Shown: in pieces, positions 18,837 through 40,112 of the stretch | Numbering within the stretch: position 1 is the first letter of the stretch | How the letters are laid out: every line of letters starts with the position of its first letter | NCBI GenBank assembly: GCA_027315105.1 | Contig: DAHUYP010000090.1 | Span: forward strand, 1-64,000 | Direction of reading: 5' to 3' | Length of the DNA: 64,000 nucleotides | DNA from: Gammaproteobacteria bacterium | Lineage (GTDB): Bacteria; Pseudomonadota; Gammaproteobacteria; Steroidobacterales; Steroidobacteraceae | Position numbers and translations under genes: made by a program | The notes under the pieces: generated by a model | The model's input: the letters and a program-made list of their open reading frames with translations, nothing else | Databases searched by the model: none | Told to the model about the DNA's origin: nothing

Positions 18837-19196
18837 TCAGTTGTCCATCGCCACCGTGGTGTCGTAGCGGTCGAAGCCGTGGATCGCGCGGTGGTAGGCA
18901 TTGAGCAGCAGCCGCTCGGCGGCTTTGTCGGCGCGCGGCGAGAGCAGCATGCGCATGACCACGTCGTCGGCCGGGCGCGTATGATCGTCCGCCAGCAGCT
19001 GCTCCATGAAGCGCGCCAGACGGCAGACGATTTCGTTGACGAAGCGCAGCCGCGCCCCGTCGTGCACCTGGTCGACGCTCGGACCGTAGGTAGTGCGGCC
19101 CTCGACCGTCAATTCGTGCAGGAACAGCGCCATCAGCCGCGCCTGATCCAATGGCGGCAGCTCCGAGAAGTATGCGATTTCCGACTGCAGGTTCAC
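18837..19196 (-). CDS. hypothetical protein at the 3' end of the Exb/AgmX operon
   Basis: 119 residues, GTG start at 19196 inside a GTGA overlap with the stop of the AgmX-like gene, so it is translationally coupled to the operon. No signal peptide or membrane helix is seen. The sequence is helical and charged, with LPPLDQARLMALFLHEL, VNEIVCRLARFMEQLL and LLLNAYHRAIHGFDRYDTT. I do not recognise the family. Position suggests a cytoplasmic accessory of the energised envelope machine. It could equally be an unlinked small protein. Its stop is 25 bases from the start of the antiporter gene. Confidence 0.75.
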   Translation of the reverse strand: MNLQSEIAYFSELPPLDQARLMALFLHELTVEGRTTYGPSVDQVHDGARLRFVNEIVCRLARFMEQLLADDHTRPADDVVMRMLLSPRADKAAERLLLNAYHRAIHGFDRYDTTVAMDN

Positions 19197-20113
19197 GAGG
19201 CTGAGCTGGCGGGAAAGAACACCAGGGGTTTGGTGGTGGTGATCGTCGCAACATCCTTGGCTTCGAATCGAAACAGTCTGACGCGCGCCGCGATCTTGCG
19301 TTCGAGCTCAGCATCCCCGAGTTCGCTCGAAACTACGCGGCATTCTGTCACTTCGCCCGACGGGGAAATTGTGAACTCGAGCACAAGTTTGCCCTGCAGG
19401 TCCGGCAGATCGCGCAAGGCGCGCTGGTACAGGGCGTCGATCGCGCCGTGATTGCGGTCGAATACCAGTTCGATCTCTTCGCGGCTGCGTCCCGGCTTGC
19501 CGTTGCTGGCGGTGCGCGTGGCGTTGCTGCCGTCGCCGGCGGCGGCGATGCGCGAATTCACGACCGTGGTTGCATGGCCGGTCAGCGCCCCGGCGCCGGT
19601 ACCGAAGCCGCGGCTGGCATTGGCGGTGGTGATGCCCGCCGAGCCGCTACCGGCCTTGGAAGCGATCAGCGAGCGCTCCGCGTGGCTGTCCTGCCCGACC
19701 GCGCCCTGCAGGTTCTTGGTCTGGCTGAGCGGTGCCAGATCGACGTTCTGGCGCAGGTCGGCCAGCTGGTCCTGGAACTTCAACAGCCCGGACTGCTGCG
19801 CCTTCTTGCGCGCATCGGCTGCCCGGTCCACCGGCTTGGGCGGTTCGATCGGCTTGGCCTCCGGCTTCGGCTTGGGCTGCTCCACCGGCGGCGGCGGCTT
19901 GGGCTTCGCCTGCACCATGAGCCGCGCCAGACGCTCCGGGACCGCCTGCTCCGGCGCCTCGGACGGCGCGGGCAGATGCAGCAACGGCAGCACCAGGCCG
20001 AACAGCGCCAGCAGCAGCAGCCCGATCGTGAGCAGCCGCCGCAAGCGGCGCTGCTCCTCGGGATCCGCCTCCCAGGGCAGCCGGTAGCTACGGTAGTACT
20101 CGGTGAGTTGCAT
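19193..20113 (-). CDS. TonB-like energy transducer with AgmX/PglI C-terminal domain
   Basis: 306 residues. Short cytoplasmic N-terminus, one membrane helix (about 27-47, LLTIGLLLLALFGLVLPLLH), then a stiff Pro/Lys linker (about 68-95, KPKPPPP and PKPKPEAKP). A low-complexity Gly/Ser/Ala region follows, then a C-terminal domain (about 205-306) with REEIELVFDRNHGAIDALYQRAL and GKLVLEFTISPSGEVTECRVVSSELGD. That last domain is the AgmX/PglI type found in Myxococcus motility and Nfs proteins, related to TonB C-termini. It should link the ExbB/ExbD proton channel to periplasmic or outer-membrane partners. It lies 17 bases after the second exbD-like gene. Confidence 0.88.
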   Translation of the reverse strand: MQLTEYYRSYRLPWEADPEEQRRLRRLLTIGLLLLALFGLVLPLLHLPAPSEAPEQAVPERLARLMVQAKPKPPPPVEQPKPKPEAKPIEPPKPVDRAADARKKAQQSGLLKFQDQLADLRQNVDLAPLSQTKNLQGAVGQDSHAERSLIASKAGSGSAGITTANASRGFGTGAGALTGHATTVVNSRIAAAGDGSNATRTASNGKPGRSREEIELVFDRNHGAIDALYQRALRDLPDLQGKLVLEFTISPSGEVTECRVVSSELGDAELERKIAARVRLFRFEAKDVATITTTKPLVFFPASSAS

Positions 20114-20130
20114 CCGTCTGTCCCAGCCCT

Positions 20131-20655
20131 TCAGGAGGTACGCACCGAGCCGGCGGGCACGGCCTTGTCTTTCTGCATGACCGCGAGCGAAATGCGGCCG
20201 TAGTCGGCATCGGTGCAGGTCGCCATGACCTTCTTGAGTACGTCGTAGGGCAGCGATTTGTCGCCCATCACGGTGATCTCGCGCTCGGCGAGATCCTTTT
20301 CCGACATCGCCTGGCCGACCAGCGTCGGGCGCTTCAGCGCCGCGCGCAACGGCGCGATGATGGCGCCGTCGGACGAACGGATCTCGGCCACCGTCGCGAT
20401 CGGCTCGCCCTGAACGTACAGCTCGTCCTTGGTCAGCATCACCACCACGGTCACGCGCGGCTGGCGTTCCGAGACCGATTGCGGAATCTCGATGGCCTTG
20501 GTGTTCTGCAGCACCTCGACGTTGGTCGAATACACCAGCAGGAACGACACCATGACGCTCAGGATGTCGATCATCGGGATCAGGTTCAGCTCGGCATCGG
20601 CGCGATGCCGCAGCTGGTGCTGCAGCATGCGTCGGGCGCGGTTGGACATGCTCAT
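20131..20655 (-). CDS. ExbD/TolR-family protein (second copy)
   Basis: 174 residues. N-terminal amphipathic/basic stretch, one membrane helix with the key acidic residue in LNLIPMIDILSVMVSFLLVYS (the Asp of MID is the proton-binding site in ExbD/TolR), then a periplasmic domain (about 65-174). It partners an ExbB/TolQ pentamer to form a proton-driven motor. ATG at 20655 was chosen because GGAG lies seven bases upstream; an in-frame ATG at 20649 is an alternative. It lies 13 bases downstream of a second, different exbD-like gene, the arrangement seen with AglQ and AglS in myxobacteria. Confidence 0.9.
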   Translation of the reverse strand: MSMSNRARRMLQHQLRHRADAELNLIPMIDILSVMVSFLLVYSTNVEVLQNTKAIEIPQSVSERQPRVTVVVMLTKDELYVQGEPIATVAEIRSSDGAIIAPLRAALKRPTLVGQAMSEKDLAEREITVMGDKSLPYDVLKKVMATCTDADYGRISLAVMQKDKAVPAGSVRTS

Positions 20656-20668
20656 GCGGCGGCTCCGG

Positions 20669-21235
20669 TCATCGCTTGGCAGCGCCGGCCGGCGCAGCAC
20701 CGTTGGCTGGTGCGCTGGCAGCGCCGTTCTGGGCCACGATCGGAGCGTCGCCGATCGAGATATCGGGGAACAGTTCGTATTGCACCACGTTGAGCCCGGC
20801 GTTGACTTCGAGCACCCGGATGCGGTCCATGACCTGGACGACCGTGTCGTACGGGGTTTGCGGCTCGAGCAGGATCGTCGCTTCGGTCTTTTCCGGGAAC
20901 CTGGCCTTCACCTGCTGCAGGTATTGCGACAGCCCATCGAGGTCGTAGGCGCCGTCCTTGCTCGCAAACGTCTTCAGCGGCCCGGAGTTCCGGTCCCCGA
21001 CCTGCAGCGAGTCATTGCGCACGGTTATTTCCAGCTGCAAGCCCGGCGGCGGCTCCTTGAACTCGGTATTGGCCGGCGGCAGCTTCAGCTCCAGGATGAC
21101 GGTGCGGGAGAACACGGCGGTCATCAGCAGGAACGTCACGAGCACCGTGAAGATGTCGATCATCGACACCAGCTGCAGCTCCGACGGCCGGCGCTGGTGG
21201 CGCAGCATTCTTCGGACGCTTTGGGAGCGGCGCAT
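20669..21235 (-). CDS. ExbD/TolR-family protein (first copy)
   Basis: 188 residues. Arg-rich cytoplasmic N-terminus, a membrane helix with the conserved acidic residue in LQLVSMIDIFTVLVTFLLMT, then a periplasmic domain with PDISIGDAPIV and an Ala/Pro-rich tail. It differs clearly from the neighbouring copy, so the pair is not a recent duplication. The two would form a heteromeric TolR-type dimer with the ExbB-like channel encoded just upstream (36-base gap). The start at 21235 gives MRRSQSVRRML, the usual short basic leader. Confidence 0.9.
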   Translation of the reverse strand: MRRSQSVRRMLRHQRRPSELQLVSMIDIFTVLVTFLLMTAVFSRTVILELKLPPANTEFKEPPPGLQLEITVRNDSLQVGDRNSGPLKTFASKDGAYDLDGLSQYLQQVKARFPEKTEATILLEPQTPYDTVVQVMDRIRVLEVNAGLNVVQYELFPDISIGDAPIVAQNGAASAPANGAAPAGAAKR

Positions 21236-21271
21236 GCGCGAACTCTGGTTTCAGCGGGCGGCGGCCGCCGC

Positions 21272-21928
21272 TCAGGCCGCGGCCGGCGCCGGCTGCGGCT
21301 GCCGCTCGGTCACGGCGTTGAGGAACTTCACCGACGCCATCTCCAGGCTGTCGATCAACTCCGTGGTCTTGGTCTGCAGCACGGCGTGAATCAGCAGCAG
21401 CGGCACGGCCGTCATGAGGCCGAAGGCCGTGCAATTCATCGCCACCGAGATGCTGGCCGACAGCAGGTTCGCCTTCTCCGCCGGATTGACGGTGGCTACC
21501 GCCGCGAAGGCGTTGATCAGGCCGATCACGGTGCCCAGCAGTCCCAGCAGCGTCGCCAGGTTCGCAAACGTGGCAATGTAGTGCGTGCGCTTCTCGAGCC
21601 GCGGCACGATATCCATCAGGCTCTCTTCCATGGCCTTCTCGATATCGTCGCGCCGGCGGGCCGACGCAATTCGCGCCAGCCCGTAGCTCAGGATCTGGGC
21701 GATCGCAGCCTTGGACTTGCCAGTCAGCTGCACCGCCTGGCGAAAGTTGCCTTGCGCCAGCAGGGGTGCGATCTCGTTCCAGAGGCCGCGATTGCGCAGC
21801 GCGGTGTGAGTCAGGACGAGCCAGCGCTCGAGGGCGATGGCCGCCCCCACCACCAGCACCGCGGCGATCGGGTACATCATGTATCCGCCGCCTTGGAAGA
21901 ATCCGACTATGTGACTGAAGATGCTCAT
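21272..21928 (-). CDS. MotA/TolQ/ExbB proton channel protein
   Basis: 218 residues with three membrane segments: about 17-37 (YMMYPIAAVLVVGAAIALERW), about 122-142 (ATFANLATLLGLLGTVIGLI) and about 165-190. The loop TLLGLLGTVIGLINAF is the family signature in helix 2. It forms the channel of an inner-membrane proton-motive-force motor with the two ExbD-like proteins. ATG 21928 is preceded by GGGAG eight bases away. It is the first gene of the motor sub-block. A gap of 80 bases separates it from the gene at 22009. Confidence 0.93.
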   Translation of the reverse strand: MSIFSHIVGFFQGGGYMMYPIAAVLVVGAAIALERWLVLTHTALRNRGLWNEIAPLLAQGNFRQAVQLTGKSKAAIAQILSYGLARIASARRRDDIEKAMEESLMDIVPRLEKRTHYIATFANLATLLGLLGTVIGLINAFAAVATVNPAEKANLLSASISVAMNCTAFGLMTAVPLLLIHAVLQTKTTELIDSLEMASVKFLNAVTERQPQPAPAAA

Positions 21929-22008
21929 CGTGCTGACTCCCATGCCTTGCCGCTATGCACTACTGGAAATGCTCAAACTAAAGGCGCTCAGACGCTCAAT
22001 TCCGCGAT

Positions 22009-22575
22009 CTACTTCTCATCCTCGGGTCTTGGCGGCGCCACGCCCGCGCCGGGGCTGCCGGCCCGCGGCGCGGCCGAGGCGGCCTGCCCCGCCAGCTGCG
22101 CGTAGTAGTCGTTCTGTCGCCGAAAGACGTCACGATCGACCGGCGCCAGCGCCTCCTCGAGCAGGCTGTTGGGCGGCCGGCCAGCGAGTTCCCCGAGATC
22201 GGCCCTGCGCCACGGCACGACGTACATGACCTTCGGCAACTCGCGGTTGCCGCTGATCTGCGTCGTGTCGAGCTCGAGATGATCGGTCGCCTTGTCGCGC
22301 TTCGGCGCTGCTCCGGCCGCGGCCGCGGCCGCGGCCGCGGCGGTGGCGGTGGCGGTGGCGGTGGCGGTGGCGGTGGCGGCAGTGACGGCGGCTTTAGGCT
22401 TCACGGGCGCCGGCGGCACAGGCGCCGCCGGCGCGCGGCTCGATGCCTCGGCCGGAGCGTTCACCGGCGCCGCAGCGCTCGAGGTCCGCACCCCGGGCTC
22501 TGGTTCCTGCGCGCCGGCCGTCGCAGCCAGCAGCAGCAGGCATGGCACCGCCCGGCGGCACTTACGGCTTGTCAT
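22009..22575 (-). CDS. exported low-complexity protein of the envelope-machine operon
   Basis: 188 residues. GGAGG six bases upstream supports ATG 22575. A signal peptide ends at about residue 22 (LLLLAATAGA, then QEPEP). The middle is Ala/Pro-rich and contains a Thr-Ala repeat passing into poly-Ala, encoded by a hexanucleotide microsatellite. The C-terminal 90 residues look folded (DHLELDTTQISGNRELPKVMYVVPWRRADLGEL and APVDRDVFRRQNDYYAQL). I do not recognise the domain. Its ATG overlaps the stop of the large TPR gene, so it is made in step with it and probably joins the periplasmic part of the complex. Confidence 0.75.
   Translation of the reverse strand: MTSRKCRRAVPCLLLLAATAGAQEPEPGVRTSSAAAPVNAPAEASSRAPAAPVPPAPVKPKAAVTAATATATATATATAAAAAAAAAGAAPKRDKATDHLELDTTQISGNRELPKVMYVVPWRRADLGELAGRPPNSLLEEALAPVDRDVFRRQNDYYAQLAGQAASAAPRAGSPGAGVAPPRPEDEK
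22315..22380. repeat. hexanucleotide microsatellite, 11 units, in frame
   Basis: Four units of GGCCGC are followed by six of GGCGGT and one GGCGGC, with no interruption. Read on the minus strand they encode a Thr-Ala run and a poly-Ala run inside the exported protein at 22009-22575. Because the unit is six bases, slippage would change linker length without breaking the frame. Confidence 0.95.
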
Positions 22576-25500
22576 GTCGAACCTCCGTTTTCGGCGCTCG
22601 CCGCCGTGCGCGGCGCATTGACATCGACCGGACCGGTCTGGGGCACCGCCGCCGGCGACGGGGCCTTGATACCGGTCCTCGCGCGCAGCTCGGCGATCCA
22701 CGTGCTGACCGGCTTGTCTTCGGCGGTCAAGATCTTGTAGCGCTCGAGTTCCGGCAGCGCCGCCGCCGGCTCCCCGAGATAAAGGTCGAGCAGCACACCC
22801 AGATTGCGATGCGCCGCCCCGTAAGCCGGATCGGCGACCAGCGCGTGCTCATAGGCGGCGCGCGCGTCCTGGAATTTGCCTTGCTGCCGCAACGTCAGTC
22901 CGAGCTCGTTCCAGGCGATGGCATCGGCGCCGTCCAGGGCGACCGCGCTTTGCAGCGCGGCGGCCGAATCGGCGAGCCGGCCGGCTTTGCGCTCGAGCAG
23001 CCCCAGATCGATCGCGCTAGCCGCGAATCCCGGATACTGCAGCTCGAACTGCTTGAGCTCGAGCTCGGCATCGGTGTCCTTGCCGGCGGTCGCAAGATCG
23101 GTCGCTCGCTGGAACTCGGTCACGGCCGCGGCGCTCGGCACCGCCGTCACCACCACCGGCGCCGCCGGCACGGCCGGCGCAGGCGGGGTCGCAGGCGGCT
23201 TCGCGGCCGCTGCCGGGGCCGGCGCCGTGGACACGGGCAAAGCGACGGCCGGCGCGCCGTTGCCTTGCGCACTCGCGCCGGCGGCGACCGGCGGCGCGGC
23301 GAGCGAGGCAACCCAGCCCACGCTGAGCTCGGTCTTGCCGTAGCGGGCGGGTTTCAGCTCCGCCAGGGCCTGGAAGCTCTTGCGCACCCAGTCGTCATAG
23401 ATGCCCTCCTGGGTGCGTTTGGCGTTGAGCTCGTGGATCGCAATGGCCTGCTCCTCGAACGGGTAAGCCTGTTCCTCGAGCAGCGAATCGTACTGTTCGC
23501 GTTCGTCCGCCGAGAGCTTCTTCGGGCGCTCCGAGCTCAGCAGGTCATGGGCCAGGGTTCGATACAGCTCGGCGGTCTCGTAGGTGGCAGCGGTCGTGGT
23601 CTCGGCCACCTGATACTCGGCGACCTGCTTATAGGCCCGGACCGCGCTCTCCATGGCTTTCTTCTTCGCGGCCAGGCTCTGTTTGAGCGGCGCCACGAGC
23701 TTGATGCTGCGGAACTCATCGCGCACCGGTGTCGCCAGCGCCAGCTGCGCCTCGGCCGCCAGATACCGCGTACGATCGGTGCGCGCGGGACCGGCCGCGG
23801 CGTCGGCGTTGATGATCTCGCGCTGCCAATAGCTCGCGCGCGCAGCATCGCCGCTCCTGGCGGCGATCTGCGCCAGCCGCTCGCGCATCTCGATCGCATC
23901 GGCCACGGGCGTCGGATACTGCTTGACCAGCCGTTCCAGCATCGCGACGCAGCGCGCTGTGTCGCCGGATTGCTGGTACAGGTCGGCGGCCTTGCTGAGC
24001 GCCTCGCGCACCACCCCCGGATCTTCCTGCGGATTCGCGGCGATGCGCTCGAATTCGGCCGCCGCCTGCGCCGAGCGGCCTGCGGCGACATAGGCGACCG
24101 CCAGCTTCTGGCCGACATCGGCGCGGTACGGGCTGTTCGGATAATCGCGCCGGTACGCCTCCAGCACCTGGATGGCGCGGTCCCATTGCTGCGCGTTGAT
24201 CAAGGCCGCGGCCGCATCGTACTGCGAGGTGGCGACCACCTTCGACGTCGGCGCGACGCGTGCCACGCGCAGGAAATCCGCCGCCGCGCCGGCCTGGTCA
24301 CCGGCGCTGCGCTTGCTTTCGCCTTGCTTGTACACCGCCGCCGCCAGGCGCTCGGTGATGTCGGCCCGCTCCGGATCGTTCGGCGCCGAGACCGCGAGCG
24401 CGCGTGTGAAGGCGTTCTCCGCCTGGGTGTAGTCGCCCTGGTTGAAGCTCACCTGGCCGACGATGGTCCAGCCGATGCGCTGCTTGGCGGCGTCGACCGG
24501 CGGCACGCGCGCCAGCAGCGCCTGCGCGCTCTGCGCCGCGCGCGCCTGATCGCCGGCGGCGTACAGGTCCTGCGCCGCGCGCGTCAGTACCGCCGCGCTC
24601 TCGGGATGGTCCGGAAATGCCTGCGCGAATCTCAGGCCCAGGGCGATGGCGCGCAGATGCGCAGCGGCGCGCGCCTCGGCCGGCAGGCCCTCCTCATACT
24701 TCTGATACGCCACCAGTGCGGCGTAGCCGGCCTCGGCCGAGCGGGCGTTCTTTGGATAATCGTAGGCCGTGTGCTCGTATTCCGCCGCGGCGTCCTGGTA
24801 CTGCTTGCTCTCGAACAGCGCATCGGCGAGCAGGTAATCGGTGGCGGCGGATTCCGGGTCGTCCGGGAACGAGGTCAGGTACGCGCGGTACCAGCGCGCC
24901 GCGGCCGCGTAGTCCGCGGGACTCTTATCTCTCTGCGCGTTGGCGTGATAATACTGCGCCACGTCCTTGAGGTTGGTCTTGAGCTCCTGCACCACCTGCG
25001 GATAGGCGCTGTGCTCGCGCCCTTGCCAGAAGGGTGCGCCGAAGCCGTAGCGCTGCACGTATTCCAGCTTGCCGTCGAGCATCAGGTCGGCGAATCCGCC
25101 CTTGCGGTAGGCCTCGATGGCGGCGTTGGTCAGCATCGGCGCGTGCTCGTCCACCGGATCACGGCTCACGAAGGCCCGATACGTCGCGGCCGCATCCTGA
25201 TAGCGCTGCTTCTCGACGTACAGATCCCCGAGACGCGAGTACAGCAGCCAGGTGTAGGGCGGATTGCCCCGGTGCGCGATGAATGCATCCAGCGATTTGG
25301 CGCCGTCCAGATACGAGAACGTGATGCTCATGACGCGCAGCGTATCCTCCACCAGCTCGCGGTCGGCACGGCTCAGCTTGTCCCAGCGGAGCTGGTGGGC
25401 GCCGTCCTTGCGATCGAGCAGCATCAGGTCGAGCAGGTTGCAGAACGGCGTCAGGCTCTCCTCGTTCGACCCCTGCTTGAACTGCGCCCAGCCGAGCTTG

Positions 25501-26126
25501 TACAGGCTCTGCGGATAGAATTTCGAGCCGCTGCGGCCGCGTGCCAGCACCGCCTCATAGGCATGCTGCGCTTCGGCATAACGCCGGGCGGAGAACAGCA
25601 GCTCGCCGCGGCGGAACTGCACCTCGGCGTAGTCGCGGCTCTGCGGATAGCGCGCGACGATGGTGTCGAGCGTGGCCAGCGCCTGCTCATTCTGACCAGT
25701 GCTCTCGTAGGCTCGCGCGAGCTGATAGAGCACTTCGTCATTGCGGGCATAGTTGGGGTAGGCCTTGAGCAACGTGCTGTAAAGCCGGATGGCCTCGGCG
25801 CCCTGCGTGTCGATCTGGGTCAGCTCACTGGCCATGCGGTCGAGCTCGCCGGACTCGAGATTGAGGTCGCCGAGCCGGCGCAGCGCTTCGGCGCGCAACT
25901 TGGGGTCGGCATTCTGCAGGTTGAGGAACTGCCGATAGTTCTCCATCGCCTTGGAGGGGCCGCCGCTGGGTATGCCATCGCTCTGCACCTGCACCGATTG
26001 CGGGTCCAGGTCGCCGACGGTCGCCGCCGCCTTGTGCGGTTGCGCCGCCTGCGCGCTCGAGAGCACCAGCGCGCACGGCAGTGCCGCGAGCCGCAGTACT
26101 AATCGTGGCGGCGGGCTCGGCATCAT
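22572..26126 (-). CDS. large periplasmic TPR protein of the envelope machine
   Basis: 1184 residues. It has a signal peptide (VLRLAALPCALVLSSAQA) and then tetratricopeptide/Tol-Pal-YbgF-like repeats through most of the length. Examples are NDEVLYQLARAYESTGQNEQAL, YPQSRDYAEVQFRRGELLFSARRYAEAQ, ESAATDYLLADALFESKQYQDA and SPYRADVGQKLAVAYVAAGRSAQA. An Ala/Pro/Val linker at about 965-1020 precedes a second TPR group (AIAWNELGLTLRQQGKFQDARAAYEHAL). Size and layout recall the large TPR proteins of the Myxococcus gliding machine (GltD/AgmU, GltE/AglT). That is similarity of type, not a tested homology. ATG 26126 overlaps the previous stop. Confidence 0.85.
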   Translation of the reverse strand: MMPSPPPRLVLRLAALPCALVLSSAQAAQPHKAAATVGDLDPQSVQVQSDGIPSGGPSKAMENYRQFLNLQNADPKLRAEALRRLGDLNLESGELDRMASELTQIDTQGAEAIRLYSTLLKAYPNYARNDEVLYQLARAYESTGQNEQALATLDTIVARYPQSRDYAEVQFRRGELLFSARRYAEAQHAYEAVLARGRSGSKFYPQSLYKLGWAQFKQGSNEESLTPFCNLLDLMLLDRKDGAHQLRWDKLSRADRELVEDTLRVMSITFSYLDGAKSLDAFIAHRGNPPYTWLLYSRLGDLYVEKQRYQDAAATYRAFVSRDPVDEHAPMLTNAAIEAYRKGGFADLMLDGKLEYVQRYGFGAPFWQGREHSAYPQVVQELKTNLKDVAQYYHANAQRDKSPADYAAAARWYRAYLTSFPDDPESAATDYLLADALFESKQYQDAAAEYEHTAYDYPKNARSAEAGYAALVAYQKYEEGLPAEARAAAHLRAIALGLRFAQAFPDHPESAAVLTRAAQDLYAAGDQARAAQSAQALLARVPPVDAAKQRIGWTIVGQVSFNQGDYTQAENAFTRALAVSAPNDPERADITERLAAAVYKQGESKRSAGDQAGAAADFLRVARVAPTSKVVATSQYDAAAALINAQQWDRAIQVLEAYRRDYPNSPYRADVGQKLAVAYVAAGRSAQAAAEFERIAANPQEDPGVVREALSKAADLYQQSGDTARCVAMLERLVKQYPTPVADAIEMRERLAQIAARSGDAARASYWQREIINADAAAGPARTDRTRYLAAEAQLALATPVRDEFRSIKLVAPLKQSLAAKKKAMESAVRAYKQVAEYQVAETTTAATYETAELYRTLAHDLLSSERPKKLSADEREQYDSLLEEQAYPFEEQAIAIHELNAKRTQEGIYDDWVRKSFQALAELKPARYGKTELSVGWVASLAAPPVAAGASAQGNGAPAVALPVSTAPAPAAAAKPPATPPAPAVPAAPVVVTAVPSAAAVTEFQRATDLATAGKDTDAELELKQFELQYPGFAASAIDLGLLERKAGRLADSAAALQSAVALDGADAIAWNELGLTLRQQGKFQDARAAYEHALVADPAYGAAHRNLGVLLDLYLGEPAAALPELERYKILTAEDKPVSTWIAELRARTGIKAPSPAAVPQTGPVDVNAPRTAASAENGGST

Positions 26127-28102
26127 CGCGGATCCGGCGCCGAGGGGGCCGGCGGGGCGGATTCCGGCGGCACGCCGCCCGGCGGCGACGGTGCGCCGGG
26201 GCCGTCGCCGGGTGCCTCGGCCGGGCGGTCGCTGCGGCTGGCCGCGCGGTCGTAGATGTCGGCCAGCTGGAAGCGCGCCTGCACGGCATAGGTGGCCAAC
26301 CGGTCCTTCTGCGACTGCAGCTCCGCCTCGGCCAGATTCGCCAGGTACTGGCTCTGCTCCTCGGCGGCGAGATCGAGCTGCTCGCGCAGGCCCTTGATGC
26401 GATCGGCCAGCAGCGCGACGCGTGCCGCGAACTCGCCGTTGTTGGTGGGCACGGTGGCGCGGGCGCGCTGCACCCGCACCCAGCGATTCTGCAATTCCTG
26501 CAGCGCGGCATCGAGTTCGCGCAGCGAGCGGTGCTCCTTGTAGCTGCGCTCCTTGAAGGCGGCATCGAGCCGCCACAGCAGCACGCCCCTGATCAGGTGC
26601 AGCTTGTCGGCGGCGTCGGCACGCTCCAGGCTCGGCGGCAACACCGCGATGCGCTCCTCGAGATGTGCGATGCGCGCCCATTGGTCGCGCTCCTCGGGGG
26701 TACCGAGCGCGGCCACGTCATCGCCGGTCTCGATGGCGTTGAGTCGCGACTCCATCTCGGCGCGCGCCGCCCGCAGCCGCGCCGGCGCATCGGTCGCCAG
26801 CAGCGCATCGGTGCGCGGCAATCGTTCGGCGTAGGCGCGCTCGCGCGTATCGATCATCGCCGCGAAGGCATCCATCTTCGCGTCCCAGGCGAGCAGTCCG
26901 ACCTGCCAGTAGTTCAGATCGCGGAAATTCTTCAGGCCCTCCTGAAAATCATTGTCGGCCAGCAGCGAATACAGGTAGCGCGATTGCGGCGCATCGGGCA
27001 GCGTCTTGAGCTGCCAGAACCAGCCGTGGTGCGCATCCAGGTCGTCGCCCAGGATGTCCTGCAGCATGTGCCCGCCGCGAATGTGCTCGATCGCCGCGTC
27101 GAGATTGTCCGACTCGGCTGCAAACGACTTGAGGGCCTCTTCGTAGTATTGCGCCGACTGCGCAGGGGCATGGAGCTGACTGAAGGCGAACGGGACGGCG
27201 AGATAGGATTCCTGCACCGCCGCGTCCAGCAGACTGCGGCGCCGCAGTTCGAGCCACGGCGCGAGCGCCGCCCGGTACTCCTGCAGGTCGGCGTGCGCCC
27301 AGCCGGCGCCGAGCAGCGCGCGGCTCGAATACGGTCCATCGAGCCGCACGCGTCCGAGCGGCACCAGCGCCCGCGCCGGATTCTGCGCCTGCAGATAGGC
27401 GAAGCCGAGCGCCAGGTTCGCCTTGTCGCGCAGTTCGAGCAGTTCGGCGCTGGTGGAGTCCATGGTGCCGACCGCCGCCAGGATCGGATCGGCCTCGGGC
27501 AAGCGCCCGGCGCGCACCAGCGCGACGCCGAGATTGAAGCGCGCAAAGGCCATCCAGTCGGGCGCGCCCTGCCAGCTCTTGAGTCGCGCTATGGCCTCGT
27601 CGTAGCGCTGCTGCCGCATCAGCACGTTGACCAGCAGGTTCATGCGCTCGGCTTCGAGACCCGCCGGCAGCGCGCCCTCGATACGGTCCAGCGCGAGCTC
27701 GCTACGATCGTAGTAACCGCGCTCGTACCAGATCTTGGCCAGGTAGAACCAGGCCTTGTTGCGCACGCGCGGCGGAACGCCGTTGCCGAGCAGCGTTTCG
27801 AAGCGGCGGCCGGCTTCGTTGTGCATGCCAAGCTGCAGGTACAGGCCGGCCGCGAGCAACTGCGCGTCCAGCTCGTGATGCGGCATGCGCTGCCACTGGC
27901 TGTAGGCCTCCAGCAGCGTAAGCGCCTGGAGGCCCGAGTCCCGATCGGCCCAGAAATGGAACAGCACGTCGCCGTAATACAGATCCTGCACCTTGACGCT
28001 GGGCAGCTTGTCCGGATCGGACTTGCGCGCCGACCAGGCGGCCGGCGCCGCCGCGGCCAGCAGCGCGCACCCCATTCCGAGCCATGGACGCGCCGGTCTC
28101 AT
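26123..28102 (-). CDS. second periplasmic TPR/coiled-coil protein of the envelope machine
   Basis: 659 residues. Signal peptide (MGCALLAAAAPAAWSA), then TPR-like helices (LDAQLLAAGLYLQLGMHNEAGRRF, RNKAWFYLAKIWYERGYYDRSE, ERMNLLVNVLMRQQRYDEAIARL). A helical middle and a coiled-coil-prone region follow (about 505-605; ELDAALQELQNRWVRV, ALLADRIKGLREQLDLAAEEQ). The C-terminal tail is Pro/Ala/Ser-rich and probably disordered. It is likely a periplasmic scaffold for the ExbB/ExbD/AgmX motor. The gene lies 7 bases after the 28110 gene and overlaps the next TPR gene by four bases. Confidence 0.85.
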   Translation of the reverse strand: MRPARPWLGMGCALLAAAAPAAWSARKSDPDKLPSVKVQDLYYGDVLFHFWADRDSGLQALTLLEAYSQWQRMPHHELDAQLLAAGLYLQLGMHNEAGRRFETLLGNGVPPRVRNKAWFYLAKIWYERGYYDRSELALDRIEGALPAGLEAERMNLLVNVLMRQQRYDEAIARLKSWQGAPDWMAFARFNLGVALVRAGRLPEADPILAAVGTMDSTSAELLELRDKANLALGFAYLQAQNPARALVPLGRVRLDGPYSSRALLGAGWAHADLQEYRAALAPWLELRRRSLLDAAVQESYLAVPFAFSQLHAPAQSAQYYEEALKSFAAESDNLDAAIEHIRGGHMLQDILGDDLDAHHGWFWQLKTLPDAPQSRYLYSLLADNDFQEGLKNFRDLNYWQVGLLAWDAKMDAFAAMIDTRERAYAERLPRTDALLATDAPARLRAARAEMESRLNAIETGDDVAALGTPEERDQWARIAHLEERIAVLPPSLERADAADKLHLIRGVLLWRLDAAFKERSYKEHRSLRELDAALQELQNRWVRVQRARATVPTNNGEFAARVALLADRIKGLREQLDLAAEEQSQYLANLAEAELQSQKDRLATYAVQARFQLADIYDRAASRSDRPAEAPGDGPGAPSPPGGVPPESAPPAPSAPDPR

Positions 28103-28109
28103 GCGTGCG

Positions 28110-28841
28110 CTATTCCCAATCCTTGATCTCGAACTCGGGTTGCTCGGCCCGCTGGTGATCGGTGACCTTGAGCTCGAGATACTTTGCGCCTACGCCTTTT
28201 TCGAACTTCAGGCTGGCGCCGCGGCGGTAATAGCGGTCGTGCGGACCCTTGCCGTCGAAGAATGCCACCAGCTCGTGGGCACCAGCCTTCAGATTGCCGA
28301 CATAGAGGCGCTGCACGCCGCCTTTGGCGAGCGCGGCGACTTCACGCGGGGTGTAGAGATAATTCTGCACGTCGCGGTTGTCGATCTTGAGCGTGATCGA
28401 ATCGAGCGCGAAGAAATCGCCCACATCCATCGATACGAATACCGCCACCTGCGTGTTGGCCGGGAACAGCAGCTCTTCCTCGAGCACGAACAGGTCGCGA
28501 TTGAGATCGACCACGTTCTTCTTGAGGTCCTGAATCTGCTGATCGAGGGCGCGGGTGCCGCCGGTGGCGCCCGCGGCAGCCGTGGCGGCCACGGTATTGT
28601 CGCCGGCAGGATTCTGCGCCGTGGCGGCGGCGGTGCCGGCCGGAGCCGCGGAGCCGGCTGCGGCGGGTGCCGCGGGCGCGGCCCCCACGGCGCCGGCTGC
28701 CTGGACCGCGGCGGCGGCGAAGCTCAACGCCGCGAGCAGCAGCGATGGCGCCAGCCGGCGCGCGTGCCGACGCGAGATGCCCAGCGGGCGGGAGGGAAGC
28801 GATGTATTCATGGGTCTCGGGCCGATCAGGTGGAGATTCAT
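28110..28841 (-). CDS. exported protein, coiled coil plus beta domain, unrecognised
   Basis: 243 residues from ATG 28841, which sits in an ATGA overlap with the thioredoxin-like gene. ATG 28811 is the alternative and leaves the signal peptide intact (LAPSLLLAALSFAAAAVQA). A long Ala/Gly/Pro linker follows, then a short coiled coil (ALDQQIQDLKKNVVDLNRDLFVLEEELL) and a C-terminal beta-rich domain (TQVAVFVSMDVGDFFALDSI, VQRLYVGNLKAGAHELVAFF, EFEIKDWE). It is periplasmic by prediction. Family unknown to me. Its place in the operon suggests a structural part of the same complex. Confidence 0.78.
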   Translation of the reverse strand: MNLHLIGPRPMNTSLPSRPLGISRRHARRLAPSLLLAALSFAAAAVQAAGAVGAAPAAPAAAGSAAPAGTAAATAQNPAGDNTVAATAAAGATGGTRALDQQIQDLKKNVVDLNRDLFVLEEELLFPANTQVAVFVSMDVGDFFALDSITLKIDNRDVQNYLYTPREVAALAKGGVQRLYVGNLKAGAHELVAFFDGKGPHDRYYRRGASLKFEKGVGAKYLELKVTDHQRAEQPEFEIKDWE

Positions 28842-29389
28842 GGTGCCGTCACGTTGTCGTCCAGCAGCGCGCGGATCTGCGTCACGTAGGTGCCCTCGTC
28901 GGCACGGTCGTCGTCGTGCAGATAGCGCACGACTCCGGAGCGATCGATCAGCACGCTTGCCGGCAGGCGCTCGATCGTGAATGCACGGCTGACCGACTTG
29001 CTGGAGTCGATCAGCAGCGGGAACGCCTGGGCATGAGCGCGCGCGTATTGCTGTGCGCGCTGCGCGTCGTCATCGACACTGATGGCCAGCACGATCAAAC
29101 CCGAGGAGCGATAGGTGTTATAGAGTCGGTCCAGCGTCGCGAGCTGCTTGGCGCAGGTGCTGCAGCGGCTGCTCCAGAACGAGACGACGACCGGCTGGCC
29201 GCGATATTCCGACAACCGCACGTTGCTGCCGGCGAAGGCCGGCAGCGCAAAGTCGGGCGCCGTCTGCCCGATCAGGCGGTTCGCAGCCGCTACGCTGATG
29301 CGGCCTGCCGGGGTGAGGGTGGCCAGCAGGGCCGCAATGGCAAGCCCGGCCCCGAACCAAAACCTGCGGGATGGAGTGCGCGCTGTCAT
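28838..29389 (-). CDS. exported thioredoxin-like (redoxin/TlpA-type) protein
   Basis: 183 residues. N-terminal membrane anchor or signal peptide (FWFGAGLAIAALLATL), then an AhpC/TSA-redoxin fold: APDFALPAFAGSNVRLSEYRGQPVVVSFW, the CxxC site RCSTCAKQ (about residues 78-85), and the cis-Pro loop RLPASVLIDRSG. It would act as a periplasmic thiol-disulfide reductase, perhaps for cytochrome c maturation or for Cys in neighbouring proteins. ATG 29389 was chosen; ATG 29446 is possible but gives a long charged leader. It heads the operon that runs to 18837. Confidence 0.85.
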   Translation of the reverse strand: MTARTPSRRFWFGAGLAIAALLATLTPAGRISVAAANRLIGQTAPDFALPAFAGSNVRLSEYRGQPVVVSFWSSRCSTCAKQLATLDRLYNTYRSSGLIVLAISVDDDAQRAQQYARAHAQAFPLLIDSSKSVSRAFTIERLPASVLIDRSGVVRYLHDDDRADEGTYVTQIRALLDDNVTAP

Positions 29390-29746: not shown

Positions 29747-31339
29747 TCAGGCGATCACGCCGTTGACCACCGAGGGCAGCTGGCCGAACGCAATCAGATT
29801 GTCGTAGTTCGCGGCCGCCCCCAGACCTTCCGCCAGCCCAGAGTTCCAGCGCACCGATTGGAACGCGCCGGCCTGTCCGTGCAGCGCCATGTAATTGAGC
29901 ACCACGGTCTCGGCCAGCAGGTTGACCGCGTTGGCCGCAATGCTGCCGGTCGCGTTGACGGTGCCATCGGCATTGTAACTGCCGATCTGCTGCATCGTGG
30001 CGGTCGGCCGTGCCTTGGGATCGAACACCAGCATCAGCGAGGCCGCGGTGGCCGTGTTGTCCGCGATCCACATGCCCTTGCCGCGGCCGTTCACGGAGTT
30101 GTCGGGCATGCCGTTGGAGATCAGCGAGCCGTCGCTGAACACATAGATCATCAGCGGCACCCCGACGCGCGCCGCGTATTCCAGGCAGGCGCCGATGCAT
30201 TGGCCGGCCTTGAAGTCGCGCTGTTCGCCGGTGGCGCGGGTGCTGTCGTGATAATCGTAGCCGCCCATCTCGATCGTGCCCGCACCGGCATAGCCATTGA
30301 TGACCATCTTCATGACCGAGGCCGTGGCCAGGAACTCCGGGTCCTGCATGTCGGTGGGACTGAAGATGCCGCTGCTGCCGGTGATATTGGTGTCCTGCAT
30401 CGGATCGAGGGCCGACAGGGCGTTGCCGTATTTGTCCACCAGGTAGGCCGCATCGACGTAGCTGCACTGCACCAGGTTCTTGATCGCCGCGTCCTGGGTG
30501 GCCGCCAGGCCGGTGCTCACCTGCCCGAGCTTGGCGGCGCTGATGCGCTCCACCGACTCGAGCACCGACACCGCATCGGCCTGGTCGAGCAGCCCCACCA
30601 GCGATCCGGTGTTGACCAGCCCGGTCACATCCGAGGGCTGCGTCACGACGGTCGGGTTCACGGTCGGATCGATCATGTAGGCCGGCGCCATGGAATTGCC
30701 GCCGGAGGCGGTCGCCTCGGTGCCGATGAGCACCAGCAACGAGCCGGCGGCGCCGGCCGTGTGAATTCCATACATCGGATTATGGGGATTCAGATTGGTG
30801 TCGGTCTGGCTGATGGCCGGAATGACGGCACCGTTGACGCGGCCGATCGTGGTCGATGCGGCGCGCTGCGTGATGCCGCGCAAATACGCGCTGTCGCTGT
30901 GCATTGCCAGTCCGAGCGTCGTGTTGACGAAGTTGCCCGTGCCGACGGACGAGTTGGGGATCATGTTGCCGGGCAACCCGAGCTTGTTGTAGCCGGCCGT
31001 GGTCAGGAAATCGAGCTGCCCGCCGGCACCGCCGACCAGCGCGTTCGAGCCGGCGATGTTGCCGCCGCCCGCCAGATCGAAGGCGATGAAGGGCACCTTG
31101 CCCGCGCCGGGCCGGATGTTGCACGGCGTCGTCACCAGTGCCTGTATGTCGGGCGCAAGCGTCGCGTAGGCCTTGCGCGGTTCGGCGAACAGGCTGAAAA
31201 ACGAGCCCATGCCGACCACGGTCGCACCGCCGCCGATCAGGCCGCGGCCCAGGAACTCGCGGCGGCTCACTGGTGGCCGATGGTCGAGGTTTCGCAGCGC
31301 ATGCGGGCTCGGCGGGCGTCGCGGCGGCGGCTTCTTCAT
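29747..31339 (-). CDS. Tat-exported DUF1501-like protein
   Basis: 530 residues. ATG 31339 has AGAGG eight bases upstream. A twin-arginine signal, SRREFLGRG (about residues 25-33), precedes a hydrophobic GGGATVVGMGSFF stretch, so a folded protein is exported by Tat. The mature part carries FIAFDLAGGGNIAGSN, GLAMHSDSAYLRGI, MGGYDYHDSTRATGEQRD and VPLMIYVFSDGSL, which resemble the DUF1501 (sulfatase/alkaline-phosphatase-like) proteins that pair with planctomycete-type cytochromes. Enzymatic activity is unknown. It is the last gene of a three-gene minus-strand cassette with two CxxCH proteins. Confidence 0.75.
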   Translation of the reverse strand: MKKPPPRRPPSPHALRNLDHRPPVSRREFLGRGLIGGGATVVGMGSFFSLFAEPRKAYATLAPDIQALVTTPCNIRPGAGKVPFIAFDLAGGGNIAGSNALVGGAGGQLDFLTTAGYNKLGLPGNMIPNSSVGTGNFVNTTLGLAMHSDSAYLRGITQRAASTTIGRVNGAVIPAISQTDTNLNPHNPMYGIHTAGAAGSLLVLIGTEATASGGNSMAPAYMIDPTVNPTVVTQPSDVTGLVNTGSLVGLLDQADAVSVLESVERISAAKLGQVSTGLAATQDAAIKNLVQCSYVDAAYLVDKYGNALSALDPMQDTNITGSSGIFSPTDMQDPEFLATASVMKMVINGYAGAGTIEMGGYDYHDSTRATGEQRDFKAGQCIGACLEYAARVGVPLMIYVFSDGSLISNGMPDNSVNGRGKGMWIADNTATAASLMLVFDPKARPTATMQQIGSYNADGTVNATGSIAANAVNLLAETVVLNYMALHGQAGAFQSVRWNSGLAEGLGAAANYDNLIAFGQLPSVVNGVIA

Positions 31340-31382
31340 GGCATCGGCCTCTGGCTGGTCGTCGGGTGGCGTAACAACATGG

Positions 31383-33863
31383 CTATTTGATCGAGGTCGT
31401 GGCACTCGACAGCACCGCGGCGCACGCTGCCATCGTGATGACCTGCGTGCGCCCAGCCGGGCACGTGCTGCCGCCGCACGTGGATAGGTTCGAGATCAGG
31501 TTGTAGAGCTCATTGCTGACCACGCTCGCGCTCGGCTGGGTCGCGATGTTCTGCCCGATCAGGTTGTTGATGAGCGGCTGGACGATCTGATCCATGGCGC
31601 TGGTGGAGCCGAAGGCCGTGCCCGGCGCCGCGGCGAAGTTGAAGCCCGGGAAGAACGCCGGCCCGAGCGTCGGGTCGTTGACCAGCGCCTGGCAGTACTG
31701 CATCGCCAGCTGCGTACCGGCGATCTGTGCCCCCGAGCTGATGCTCTGGATGTCGAACACCGTCGGCAGCTGCTGCTGGACGGTCAGGTAGGTCACATTC
31801 ACGGCCGGGACCGTCGGCGAGACGGTCGACAGCTTCGACATCGTGGCGTTGACCTCGTCGAATACGCGCACGCCGATTTCCGAGGACGCGACCAGATCGA
31901 CCGGCGTCGGCGGCGTCGGCGTCGCGTCGGTATAAGTGTGGCTGCTGGTCCCGATCTGCGCGAAGGTCAGGAAGAACTGGTCGGCGCCGGGTCCGTTCTG
32001 CAGCGGAATCACGGTGCCGATCGGCGACAGCAGCTGACCGCTGGTCGGCGAGTAGTCGTTGGCGTTCACGTTCACGCTCAGCGGGATGTACGCCTGATCG
32101 ACCGGTACTTCCACGCCGTTCAGGCCGATGCGAATGCCGGCGATCGGGATGTTGCTGCTCGGCTTGAAGGTCGGATCGAGGTTGATGAAGGTCGGCCGGT
32201 CGAACAGGTAGCTGTAGCTGTCGTACTGACTGGCCGTGAACATGATGTACGACTGCGGGATGCTGACCAGGCCGCTGATGTCGAACAGCAGGTAATAGCT
32301 CGCACCGACGCCGGCGGCATAATTCTGCTGGATCTGCTGCAGCGTCAGGGCCACGTCGTGCACGGCCGCGAAGCGCACCACGCCCTGCCACGGATGATCG
32401 CCCGAGGTCTCGTTGCCGAGCAGGAAGGCGAAGCTGGAGTCCCAGTTATTGAGCGTGCCCCCGGTCGAGCCGTCGATGTCGCCGGTGAACACGCCGTTCA
32501 CGTAGAGGCGGCGCCCGTGGGTCGGATCGTAGGTCAGCACCACATGCTGCAGCGCAGCCTGCGCCAGTTGATTGCTGGCATTGGTCAGCAGGGTCGGCGC
32601 ACCGTTGAGGTCGCTGTTGCTGTTGCGGTTGAAGATGTTGTACTGGAAGGCGTTCTGGGCCACGGTGAAATTGCGCAGCGTGTCGCCGCCCGAATAGCTG
32701 GCCACGTACGCCTTGGTCTGCGTGACGTTGGCCGCATTCACCCACAGTTCGACGCTGTACTGGCCGGCGGCGGTCAGCTTGTTGTAGAGCTTGGAGCTGG
32801 TGGCGGTGCTCGCCTGGGCCCGCCCGTTGGTGGTGAAGCTGATGCCCCAGCCCCCGACCCAGGCGGCATCGCCCGAGAGCGTCAGGTCCATGGAGGGATC
32901 CACACCGCTGGTGTCGTAGGCCGTCAGGCCGGTGCCTTCCTTGAACTGCCACTTGGCGATGTCGTGGGCGTCGTAGCGGTTGGCGCCGGAGGCCACGGTG
33001 CCCTGCGTGAGCGTGAGCGCTTTCGACACGATCAGCGACGGATCGACCGGCGTGACGGTGATGCCGTTGGCGAAGGCCTGGATCGCGGCCAGCATGGTCG
33101 CGGCGCTCGCCGGGCAGTTCACCGGGTTGCCCCAGCAGTTGTGCGACTGTTGCGCCAGGCGAATGTAGAAATTCGAGCTCGGCGGCGAATTGAGCGAGAT
33201 CTCCGGCTGTGCGGCCGCGTAGGCCGTGGCGATGTTGTCGCTGGCGAAATACGGCGACTGTGGCGTCGCCGCGGTATCGGAGTGGCAGCGCGAGCACCAT
33301 TGCTGCACCACCGGATAGACGGTGGACTGGAACAGCGTGGTATCGGTCGGAAACACCTTGGTGGCACCGACGGTCTGCGAAGGCGGCGCCGTCAGCTGGA
33401 TCTGCGTGCCGCCCGACGTGCCGGCGCCGCCGCCGGCCCAGTTGCTGATCCAGGTGGTCAGGATGTCGGCGCAGGCCTGCGTGCTCGCGAGCCAGCAGTT
33501 GTGGCCGCTGCCCACCTTCTGCACCATCAGCGAGGTCTCGGGCTGTGACAGGTTGACGACCGTGAGCGCCGCGCTGTAGGCCTGATTGATGTCGTCCGAG
33601 CGGGCGAACATCGGGCTCTGCCCGCCGGCCTTGTGGCAGGCGCCGCAACGATTGCTCGGCGAGATATTGACCCAGAGGTTGGCTTCGAACGCCTGCACGT
33701 CCGCGCTGCCCGGCGCGGGGCCGCTGTAGGCCGCCGCCGCCGCCGCCAGCTGGATGTTCGGGTTCTGTGTCGTCGGTGCGCCGCCCGAGCAGGCGCCGAG
33801 CGCCAGTGCCGCGAGGCCCAGCAGCAGGCGCGAGAGCGTCATGGGTTGCAACTGGGCTTTCAC
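31383..33863 (-). CDS. LamG-domain lipoprotein with two CxxCH heme-type motifs
   Basis: 826 residues. Lipoprotein signal with lipobox ALGAC (Cys about 25). Two c-type heme motifs lie in the N-terminal third: CGACH at about 73-77 and CSRCH at about 190-194. A LamG/concanavalin-like module follows at about 305-505 (WQFKEGTGLTAYDTSG, YSVELWVNAANVTQTK, LQHVVLTYDPTHGRRLYVNG, FLLGNETSGDHPWQGVVRFAAVHD). The C-terminal 300 residues are unrecognised. The architecture fits a surface or periplasmic cytochrome-like protein that may bind a polysaccharide. Heme attachment is predicted from motifs only. It lies 11 bases after the 33875 gene. Confidence 0.82.
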   Translation of the reverse strand: MKAQLQPMTLSRLLLGLAALALGACSGGAPTTQNPNIQLAAAAAAYSGPAPGSADVQAFEANLWVNISPSNRCGACHKAGGQSPMFARSDDINQAYSAALTVVNLSQPETSLMVQKVGSGHNCWLASTQACADILTTWISNWAGGGAGTSGGTQIQLTAPPSQTVGATKVFPTDTTLFQSTVYPVVQQWCSRCHSDTAATPQSPYFASDNIATAYAAAQPEISLNSPPSSNFYIRLAQQSHNCWGNPVNCPASAATMLAAIQAFANGITVTPVDPSLIVSKALTLTQGTVASGANRYDAHDIAKWQFKEGTGLTAYDTSGVDPSMDLTLSGDAAWVGGWGISFTTNGRAQASTATSSKLYNKLTAAGQYSVELWVNAANVTQTKAYVASYSGGDTLRNFTVAQNAFQYNIFNRNSNSDLNGAPTLLTNASNQLAQAALQHVVLTYDPTHGRRLYVNGVFTGDIDGSTGGTLNNWDSSFAFLLGNETSGDHPWQGVVRFAAVHDVALTLQQIQQNYAAGVGASYYLLFDISGLVSIPQSYIMFTASQYDSYSYLFDRPTFINLDPTFKPSSNIPIAGIRIGLNGVEVPVDQAYIPLSVNVNANDYSPTSGQLLSPIGTVIPLQNGPGADQFFLTFAQIGTSSHTYTDATPTPPTPVDLVASSEIGVRVFDEVNATMSKLSTVSPTVPAVNVTYLTVQQQLPTVFDIQSISSGAQIAGTQLAMQYCQALVNDPTLGPAFFPGFNFAAAPGTAFGSTSAMDQIVQPLINNLIGQNIATQPSASVVSNELYNLISNLSTCGGSTCPAGRTQVITMAACAAVLSSATTSIK

Positions 33864-33874
33864 GACCGCGCCTC

Positions 33875-35053
33875 CTACTGGCCCATGCAGTAGACGGCGG
33901 ATTCAGCGAACGCCGTCTTCATGTTGTAGTTCGAGGAGATGAAGTCGGAGGTGATCTGAGCCGCCTGGGCGCGATCGGCGGCATTGCTCGGCAGGCGCAG
34001 GCACATCGCCTGGAACGCCTTCTGCACCTGGCAGGCCGCGAACTGCCTGGAGCCCTCGATCTCCTGTCCGAACGACTTGGCGCCGTTGCCGCGGCCGGGC
34101 AGTGAGCTGCTCCAGCCGAGCAGCGCATTCGGGCCGCTGCGCCAGTAGTTGATCCAGCTGTCGTCGGTCGTAATGTGACCGTACGGGAAATTGCCGGTGT
34201 TGATGCCGTACTTGGCCTGTACCTGGCCCGCCGTGTAGACCATCCGGCCGCTGACGGTGTCGAAATTGTAGTAGGCAAACGCGCCCGCGAGCGCGTCCAT
34301 GCCCGAATGGCAGCCGATGCAGACGTTCAGGAACGTACGGCTGTCGCCGCCCGGGGAGCGCGACGGATCCTGGCGGATGCGATCCGGCGGGCGCGTGGTA
34401 TCCATGATCGTCGGCAGGTCGTCGCACATGTAGTTGATCATCGTGAATCGCACCATGGCGCGATTCGTGCCCAGGTAGAAGAAGGCCGAGGCGCCGCCGT
34501 AGGTGGTCATGACGCCGGCGGTGGCCGCGGACGCTATCCCGGTCAGTGACGACTGCGTCTGCGCCTGCAGCACCTTCGACAGATCGGCGCCGTTGTCGTC
34601 CAGGTACTGGTAGTGATTGTTGTTGGCGGGCGAATAGCCCGGCACACCCGACATGTTGCCGGTGTAGACCAGGTCGGCCGACAGCACGGTGTTGTACGGC
34701 ACGTTGTCGCGCACCATGCCGATGATGGTCGCGGTGTAGTCGTTCAGCGGCACGAACACGCTCTGCGCCTTGTTGGTCATCGGCGCCGCGAAGTTGCGCA
34801 CCGTGACGTTGTAGAAGCTCGGATCCTGCATCGCGAGTTGCGCGGCCGCCGACGCACTGCCCGAGCTGATGTCGTTCGCCATCTGCGACAGCACCGATGG
34901 GCTCGGTTCGGTTCCGGTGATACGGCCGAACAGGCGCTCGGCCTGCTCGGTGGCGCCGGCGAACGCCGGCGCAAACGGCTGCGACACCGGCAGGGCCGCC
35001 AGCAGCGCGGCCAGCGTCCTGCCCACACGCGGGGTGTTTGAGCGGTCGAACAT
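33875..35053 (-). CDS. exported CxxCH protein with DUF1585/DUF1588-like C-terminus
   Basis: 392 residues with a signal peptide (TLAALLAALPVSQPFAPAFA). One heme-type motif occurs in FLNVCIGCHSGMDALAGAFAYYNFD (Cys about 245). That context resembles the planctomycete-cytochrome PSD proteins, where C-x-x-C-H is followed by D-x-L/G-F. The rest is a helical domain (VRFTMINYMCDDLPTIMDTTRPPDRIRQDPS). GGGAG nine bases before ATG 35053 supports the start. It is the first gene of a cassette with the LamG lipoprotein and the DUF1501-like protein, the same family pairing seen in planctomycetes. The substrate is unknown. Confidence 0.72.
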   Translation of the reverse strand: MFDRSNTPRVGRTLAALLAALPVSQPFAPAFAGATEQAERLFGRITGTEPSPSVLSQMANDISSGSASAAAQLAMQDPSFYNVTVRNFAAPMTNKAQSVFVPLNDYTATIIGMVRDNVPYNTVLSADLVYTGNMSGVPGYSPANNNHYQYLDDNGADLSKVLQAQTQSSLTGIASAATAGVMTTYGGASAFFYLGTNRAMVRFTMINYMCDDLPTIMDTTRPPDRIRQDPSRSPGGDSRTFLNVCIGCHSGMDALAGAFAYYNFDTVSGRMVYTAGQVQAKYGINTGNFPYGHITTDDSWINYWRSGPNALLGWSSSLPGRGNGAKSFGQEIEGSRQFAACQVQKAFQAMCLRLPSNAADRAQAAQITSDFISSNYNMKTAFAESAVYCMGQ

Positions 35054-40093: not shown

Positions 40094-40112
40094 GCCCGGG
40101 GCGGGAGCGATG

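Follow-up and report, generated by a model that had tools for sequence, protein, structure and literature searches.

The 64,000-nucleotide window analyzed here (positions 1 to 64,000 of contig DAHUYP010000090.1, assembly GCA_027315105.1, from a gammaproteobacterium of the Steroidobacteraceae) carries an operon on its minus strand, running from 29389 down to 18837, which by its sequence almost certainly encodes an envelope machine of the Agl/Glt/Nfs class. With somewhat less than even confidence, we propose that this predicted envelope-spanning motor serves a surface redox module and not gliding. A 16S fragment of the genome, with its best matches in a plasmid database at 84-86% to Methylomagnum, Caballeronia, Cupriavidus, and others and with 85% identity to E. 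coli, agrees with a broadly gammaproteobacterial origin. The machine itself is known; what is new here is a GltD-GltE fusion, an mglA-linked homologue of the core gene termed cc (28110-28841), the linkage to outer-membrane barrels, and the redox module.

Open frames and start positions defined ten genes in the operon. A preliminary description, made from the letters of the sequence alone, had recognized the operon correctly but counted nine genes, while its own list sums to ten. The four overlaps that it reported were found as four 4-base overlaps inside the operon, comprising three ATGA overlaps (redoxin and 28110 genes, 659-aa and 1184-aa genes, 1184-aa and 188-aa genes) and one GTGA overlap (TonB-like and 119-aa genes). 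The gene products that it named were recovered in scans of Pfam and NCBIfam: the channel protein (MotA_ExbB, 98.8 bits), both ExbD-like proteins (64.5 and 62.3 bits), the AgmX/PglI tail of the TonB-like protein (NF033768, 69 bits against a cut-off of 40), the redoxin (AhpC-TSA, 98 bits), and the two tetratricopeptide repeat (TPR) proteins, of which the 1184-aa protein matched many TPR models and the 659-aa protein few. The three proteins listed as unrecognized indeed matched no family in either database at an E-value of 0.1. The extent given, 18837-29389, proved too short, as linked genes go on upstream: those on the minus strand reach 35053, and a divergent plus-strand group extends to about 41543.

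The motor proteins were assigned by phylogeny and profile comparison. In a quick tree that produced long-branch warnings, the window ExbB fell outside the TolQ/ExbB groups and into a 25-row clade together with seven Myxococcota AglR-type rows, with a Shimodaira-Hasegawa-like approximate likelihood ratio test (SH-aLRT) support of 99. The three other ExbB copies of the same genome lay outside this clade. The two ExbD proteins paired one-to-one with AglQ and AglS, which are genes two and three in AglRQS-type operons; in four Myxococcus/Hyalangium operons each ExbD profile favored a different gene, and the scores at locus L181 were 76.7 versus 25.3 and 103.7 versus 22.8 bits. In the membrane helix, both ExbDs retain an Asp (MIDI). 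A single hydrophobic segment (23-51) is present in the GltG-like protein, on which the Pfam/NCBIfam scan detected no FHA domain. Its likeness to GltG is confined to the tail, with 51 bits for the GltG model NF033760 against an equivalog cut-off of 650.

The scaffold was compared with Myxococcota using relatives named from an MglA scan. Profiles were run on the open frames of 14 regions from six genomes, and E-values on those regions were computed for a set size of 10000. The genes GltC, GltD, GltE, a small gene, and GltG of Myxococcus sp. CA023 (L165) stand in the same order as in the window, with E-values of 3e-9 for GltC, 4e-50 for GltD, 8e-32 for GltE, and 1e-11 for GltG. Searched against whole genomes, the GltC profile gave a single match in Myxococcus, at the GltC position, and five in Hyalangium, some of them in other TPR genes. 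The GltD match extends over the non-TPR C-terminal part. Because the GltE profile also matches generic TPR proteins, the GltE assignment leans on position. Thus, the TPR proteins go beyond generic matches, as GltC, GltD, and GltE by position and as GltD in its non-TPR C-terminal part. Searches of the PDB with the 659-aa and cc proteins returned designed TPRs and MamA, or chance matches, and these were set aside. Together, the AglR clade, the pairing of the ExbDs with AglQ and AglS, the GltC/GltD/GltE genes, and the GltG tail in the same gene order bear out the resemblance to Agl/Glt/Nfs that had been suggested at the outset.

The neighborhood sample comprised 64 loci on stretches of limited length. 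A nine-gene unit, consisting of the 28110 gene, a TPR gene, the N and C parts of the second TPR protein, the 22009 gene, ExbB, two ExbD genes, and the TonB-like gene, was complete and in a single order in 54 of them. The association of these genes is therefore not due to chance, and they are kept together at other loci. Two of the remaining 10 loci were truncated by contig ends, and eight were without some core genes despite room for them. The core unit includes cc as well as the small gene located between GltE and AglR. GltD-like and GltE-like genes stood in separate frames in 47 of the 64 loci and shared a frame in the window and at ten further loci; one additional locus was fused only at 12.7 bits, and five gave no pair. 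Since the two genes are separate in these 47 loci, the 1184-aa protein is a GltD-GltE fusion. The 188-aa protein is probably GltF by position, the evidence from its sequence being weak: profile-profile comparison with GltF gave 4.8% at first and 24.9% once more sequences were included. Among 2655 open reading frames, the two that scored best with its profile lay at the GltF position, with E-values of 0.0019 and 0.17, the first alone significant, and an earlier profile had ranked these two frames differently.

The core gene cc has a myxobacterial homologue directly after mglA. In Hyalangium (L170) the order is mglB-like, mglA, cc homologue, GltC, GltD, GltE, small gene, and GltG. A phmmer search placed the homologue directly after mglA in 19 of 80 MglA loci with flanks of at most 1 kb, a count that includes the query's own locus and Myxococcus L056. 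The window-type cc profile gave E-values of 2e-8 to 9e-6 among the 13 matches listed, and hhalign of window cc against the mglA-linked profile gave 96.8% (E 3e-10). A single-sequence AlphaFold2 model of cc reached a predicted local distance difference test score (pLDDT) of 41, and no cc relatives were confirmed in a scan of IMG/VR. We take mglA to be MXAN_1925. Since MXAN_1922 is the gltD homologue of the G4 cluster according to Luciano et al. (PMC3169522, in part), the mglBA-linked cluster is probably G4 of M. xanthus.

Upstream of the core lie genes for barrels and redox-type proteins. The plus-strand cassette, divergent from the operon, runs in the order HzsA-like, SH3-barrel, barrel, redoxin, DUF4266, and DUF3570. 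One window barrel exceeds the cut-off of TIGR04565 and the second, in the SH3 gene, stays below it. Among six Myxococcus/Hyalangium barrels beside GltC or GltG, five were above this cut-off and one reached 56.9 bits; gammaproteobacterial and Myxococcota barrel profiles aligned with 97.1% in hhalign (E 7.5e-11). Recurrent upstream neighbors across the 64 loci were HzsA-like (29), redoxin (28), SH3-barrel (25), LamG, PSD2-like, and ApbE (21 each), barrel (19), and the twin-arginine (Tat) protein and DUF3570 (17 each). The CxxCH motifs, two each in the HzsA-like and LamG proteins and one in the PSD2-like protein, together with the two redoxins, fit c-type cytochrome handling. A true hydrazine synthase alpha subunit was rejected, since NF052339 scored 52.2 bits, far under its cut-off of 800. 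The Tat protein could not be placed in a known family: its 13 members gave two chance-level Pfam matches, none of them for the window protein, and the PDB search gave one match at E 0.72.

Each marker was searched in the same 369 class genomes, with cc, present in 80, as the core marker. TIGR04565 matches over the cut-off occurred in 56/80 genomes with cc and in 0/289 without it (Fisher 1.7e-47, kinship ignored), while 55 further genomes had matches below the cut-off. The barrel shared a contig with the best cc match in 44 of these 56 genomes, within 15 kb of cc in 42, and was found in 30 of the 43 family groups holding cc. HzsA-like matches of at least 150 bits, a cut chosen after inspection of the table, occurred in 51/80 genomes with cc and 1/289 without; at E 1e-3 (63 genomes) the counts were 55/80 and 8/289. 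The Tat protein was present in 48/80 and 2/289, respectively.

The proposed mechanism is as follows. Proton flow through AglR/AglQ/AglS would move the ExbD pair, and the GltG-like arm would transmit the force through the peptidoglycan to a GltC/D/E scaffold, which may be docked beneath the barrels so that the force reaches the outer membrane. The task would be the export, assembly, or movement of a surface redox module, not gliding, this module putatively comprising the HzsA-like, LamG, and PSD2-like CxxCH proteins with the Tat protein, the redoxins, and DUF4266/DUF3570. The barrels are quite likely working parts of the machine. That the surface redox proteins are its client is a tentative suggestion, and the narrower version, a proton-driven outer-membrane device dedicated to exporting, assembling, or moving haem-binding surface lipoproteins via GltA/B-type barrels, is rather unlikely as it stands. 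Several observations weigh against the proposal. The HzsA-barrel cassette is divergent in the window and therefore does not form one transcript with the motor, and the Fisher tests take genomes as independent. There was no barrel over the cut-off in 24 of the 80 genomes with cc and no strong HzsA-like match in 29, and the genome G079, without cc, carries HzsA-like and Tat genes. Redox genes stand beside a partial core, with no adjacent motor genes within the stretch, at L228, L232, L240, and L244. While redox-linked loci are widely spread in the GltD tree, a ten-row core subclade, eight loci of which were covered for 7-10 kb upstream and two for less than 1 kb, has none of the redox or barrel neighbors; this subclade probably has another function.

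The same force-transmitting machine might instead carry a surface polysaccharide as Nfs does, the redox genes being mere neighbors with a separate task. Of the relatives studied functionally, Nfs is the nearest (PMC3858216, in part), the LamG fold is lectin-like, and the SH3 gene suggests envelope work, but no polysaccharide gene was among the recurrent neighbors scanned, and genomes lacking the core almost never have the barrel or HzsA-like genes; we regard this reading as unlikely. The preliminary description had offered a polysaccharide or a lipoprotein as cargo, of which the first is unsupported by the neighborhood seen, whereas genes for lipoproteins of a redox kind do lie nearby. A specialized Ton/Tol-like energizer for envelope integrity or uptake, without cargo movement, would account for the ExbB/ExbD/TonB architecture and for the 25.7 bits for TonB_C in the operon, barely above the cut-off. 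However, the TolQ, ExbB, TolR, ExbD, and TonB equivalog scores were far below their cut-offs, the ExbB stands apart from the corresponding groups in the tree, and GltC/GltD and the barrels accompany the motor. A generic Ton/Tol system is consequently disfavored, and the specialized form is improbable. As for gliding, in which surface adhesins would be moved along the cell, the motor, the scaffold, and the barrels all have homologues among the gliding components. Nevertheless, no MglA homologue was found in 40 genomes, the genome of the window (87% complete) and 39 relatives, in a search aimed at MglA and not at GltI, GltJ, or AglZ, and the same query did find MglA in three myxobacteria. Because no MglA was found while the control worked, gliding is very unlikely; the GltG-like protein is also without an FHA domain, and Luciano et al. 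make the case that motility is not powered by the core on its own (PMC3169522, in part).

Features of the operon and its surroundings in the window, with the evidence for each.
Feature	Position	Strand	Evidence
ResA/TlpA-like redoxin, first gene of operon	28838..29389	-	AhpC-TSA 98 bits
cc protein, core gene without family	28110..28841	-	myxobacterial homologue after mglA
GltC-like exported TPR protein, 659 aa	26123..28102	-	profile match at Myxococcus GltC position, E 3e-9
Fused GltD-GltE-like exported TPR protein, 1184 aa	22572..26126	-	N part of ~930 aa GltD-like, C part GltE-like
Small exported protein, 188 aa, motif GNxELPKVLYIVPWK, probable GltF counterpart	22009..22575	-	weak profile match, 24.9%
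AglR-type ExbB/MotA channel protein	21272..21943	-	MotA_ExbB, tree
AglQ-type ExbD	20669..21235	-	ExbD family, profile pairing
AglS-type ExbD	20131..20655	-	ExbD family, profile pairing
GltG-like TonB-type protein, AgmX/PglI tail, without FHA domain	19193..20113	-	NF033768 69 bits
119-aa protein, outside nine-gene core	18837..19196	-	homologue adjoins TonB-like gene in 8/23 relative loci
Protein with twin-arginine signal (by eye), without family	29747..31405	-	50/369 class genomes, 48 with cc
LamG lipoprotein, two CxxCH motifs, lipobox by eye	31383..33863	-	Laminin_G_3 66 bits
PSD2-like protein, one CxxCH	33875..35053	-	PSD2/DUF1585 13.5 bits; relative 20.4; both below cut-off
Hydrazine-synthase-alpha-like lipoprotein, two CxxCH	35354..38053	+	HZS_alpha 55.3 bits; PDB 5c2v E 5.8e-24
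SH3 domain and C-terminal barrel-like part, start uncertain	38061..38789	+	SH3_3 42.7 bits; TIGR04565 25.5 bits, below cut-off
Outer-membrane barrel, TIGR04565 (GltA/GltB/NfsA/NfsB-type family)	38759..39532	+	161.7 bits, cut-off 60
TlpA-like redoxin	39578..40093	+	AhpC-TSA 101.7 bits
DUF4266 lipoprotein, C-terminal CxC	40110..40349	+	PF14086 79.5 bits, cut-off 27
DUF3570 protein	40392..41543	+	PF12094 153.8 bits
Ysc84/SYLF lipid-binding-type protein, directly after DUF3570 gene	41550..42443	+	128.6 bits
ApbE-like protein, 17.6 kb from operon end	336..1211	-	289.5 bits

Further observations were made around these genes. The 119-aa homologue stands beside the TonB-like gene at loci L032-L034 and L036-L040. 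After the operon, at 14055-18811 on the minus strand, the window carries a Kef-type gene (Na/H-exchanger plus TrkA) and another large gene, and both recur after the operon in L034 and L037. The conserved gene that follows mglA in many myxobacteria (L170:7011-9111, L056, L064, L066, and others) is the cc counterpart. The record L057, titled Comamonas sp. KCTC 72670, holds an MglA sharing 99% identity with the Myxococcus protein, followed by a cc homologue, and is probably a mislabelled or contaminated assembly. In the one-contig genome G079, the HzsA-like gene (in pieces) and the Tat gene lie at C1:1998599-2005796, and the genome gave no cc match. The ten-row subclade (L050-L054, L221, L223, L229, L233, and L246) represents a second core copy in some genomes.

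According to the parts of Luciano et al. (2011; PMC3169522) at hand, gammaproteobacteria, Geobacter, and Fibrobacter have a core complex of unknown function, its genes gltC, gltD, gltE, and gltG clustered with aglR, aglQ, and aglS in one region together with one additional gene said to be without homologues in Myxococcales and Bdellovibrionales, while gltA and gltB are restricted to those two orders. Wartel et al. (2013; PMC3858216, in part) likewise describe the core as occurring on its own in many gammaproteobacteria and as a possible basal transport machine. GltC of M. xanthus is bound by GltA and GltB, both of them barrels of the outer membrane (Jakobczak et al., 2015; PMC4488436, in part). 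Hence, the preliminary description was right that a gammaproteobacterium carries a motor related to Agl/Glt, but this motor is not undescribed. In the open-licence papers searched, we found no later work giving the core a job, and no earlier account of the fusion, the barrels, the redox module, or the mglA-linked cc homologue. In Geomonas Red32 and Geobacter AOG1 the AgmX tail was absent and TPR-type matches alone were found in the regions compared; the Geobacter cases of the literature were thus not recovered from these two genomes.

The window operon is that complex, with gltC/D/E/G and aglR/Q/S clustered together with an extra gene. It differs in its fusion of GltD and GltE, in having two more conserved genes in the unit (cc and the 188-aa gene) where the paper has one, and in its linkage to barrels and a redox module, neither of which is mentioned in the portion of the 2011 text at hand (PMC3169522). 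If cc is the extra gene of that paper, a myxobacterial homologue does exist, beside mglA, contrary to what that text states, and the GltA/GltB-family barrels in gammaproteobacteria bear on its claim of restriction to Myxococcales and Bdellovibrionales. For a core known since 2011 without a job, the link to the barrel family and to recurrent redox-type surface proteins supplies concrete candidate clients. If the proposal is true, the gliding and spore-coat roles in myxobacteria would be other uses of a machine with a widespread redox-linked form.

The Nfs spore-coat machine of Myxococcus (L165, L169) shares the order GltC-D-E-F-G with two TIGR04565 barrels upstream, whereas the window has the motor genes inside the cluster, a GltG without FHA, and redox neighbors instead of exo genes (PMC3858216, in part). 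The Hyalangium mglBA cluster (L170) shares the order of cc homologue, GltC, GltD, GltE, small gene, and GltG; there, however, MglA/MglB adjoin and the motor is elsewhere, no MglA was found here, and in the GltD tree the cluster groups with other Myxococcota and not with the window group. The redox genes resemble the DUF3570/DUF4266/thioredoxin/ApbE flavinylation cassette (PMC8238504, in part), in that DUF4266, DUF3570, and a thioredoxin-like gene are consecutive and an ApbE gene is present in the window. Unlike that cassette, the window DUF3570 shows no [ST]GA[ST] motif (its relative at L211 reads SGAS), ApbE is about 39 kb away, and the HzsA-like and barrel genes lie upstream.

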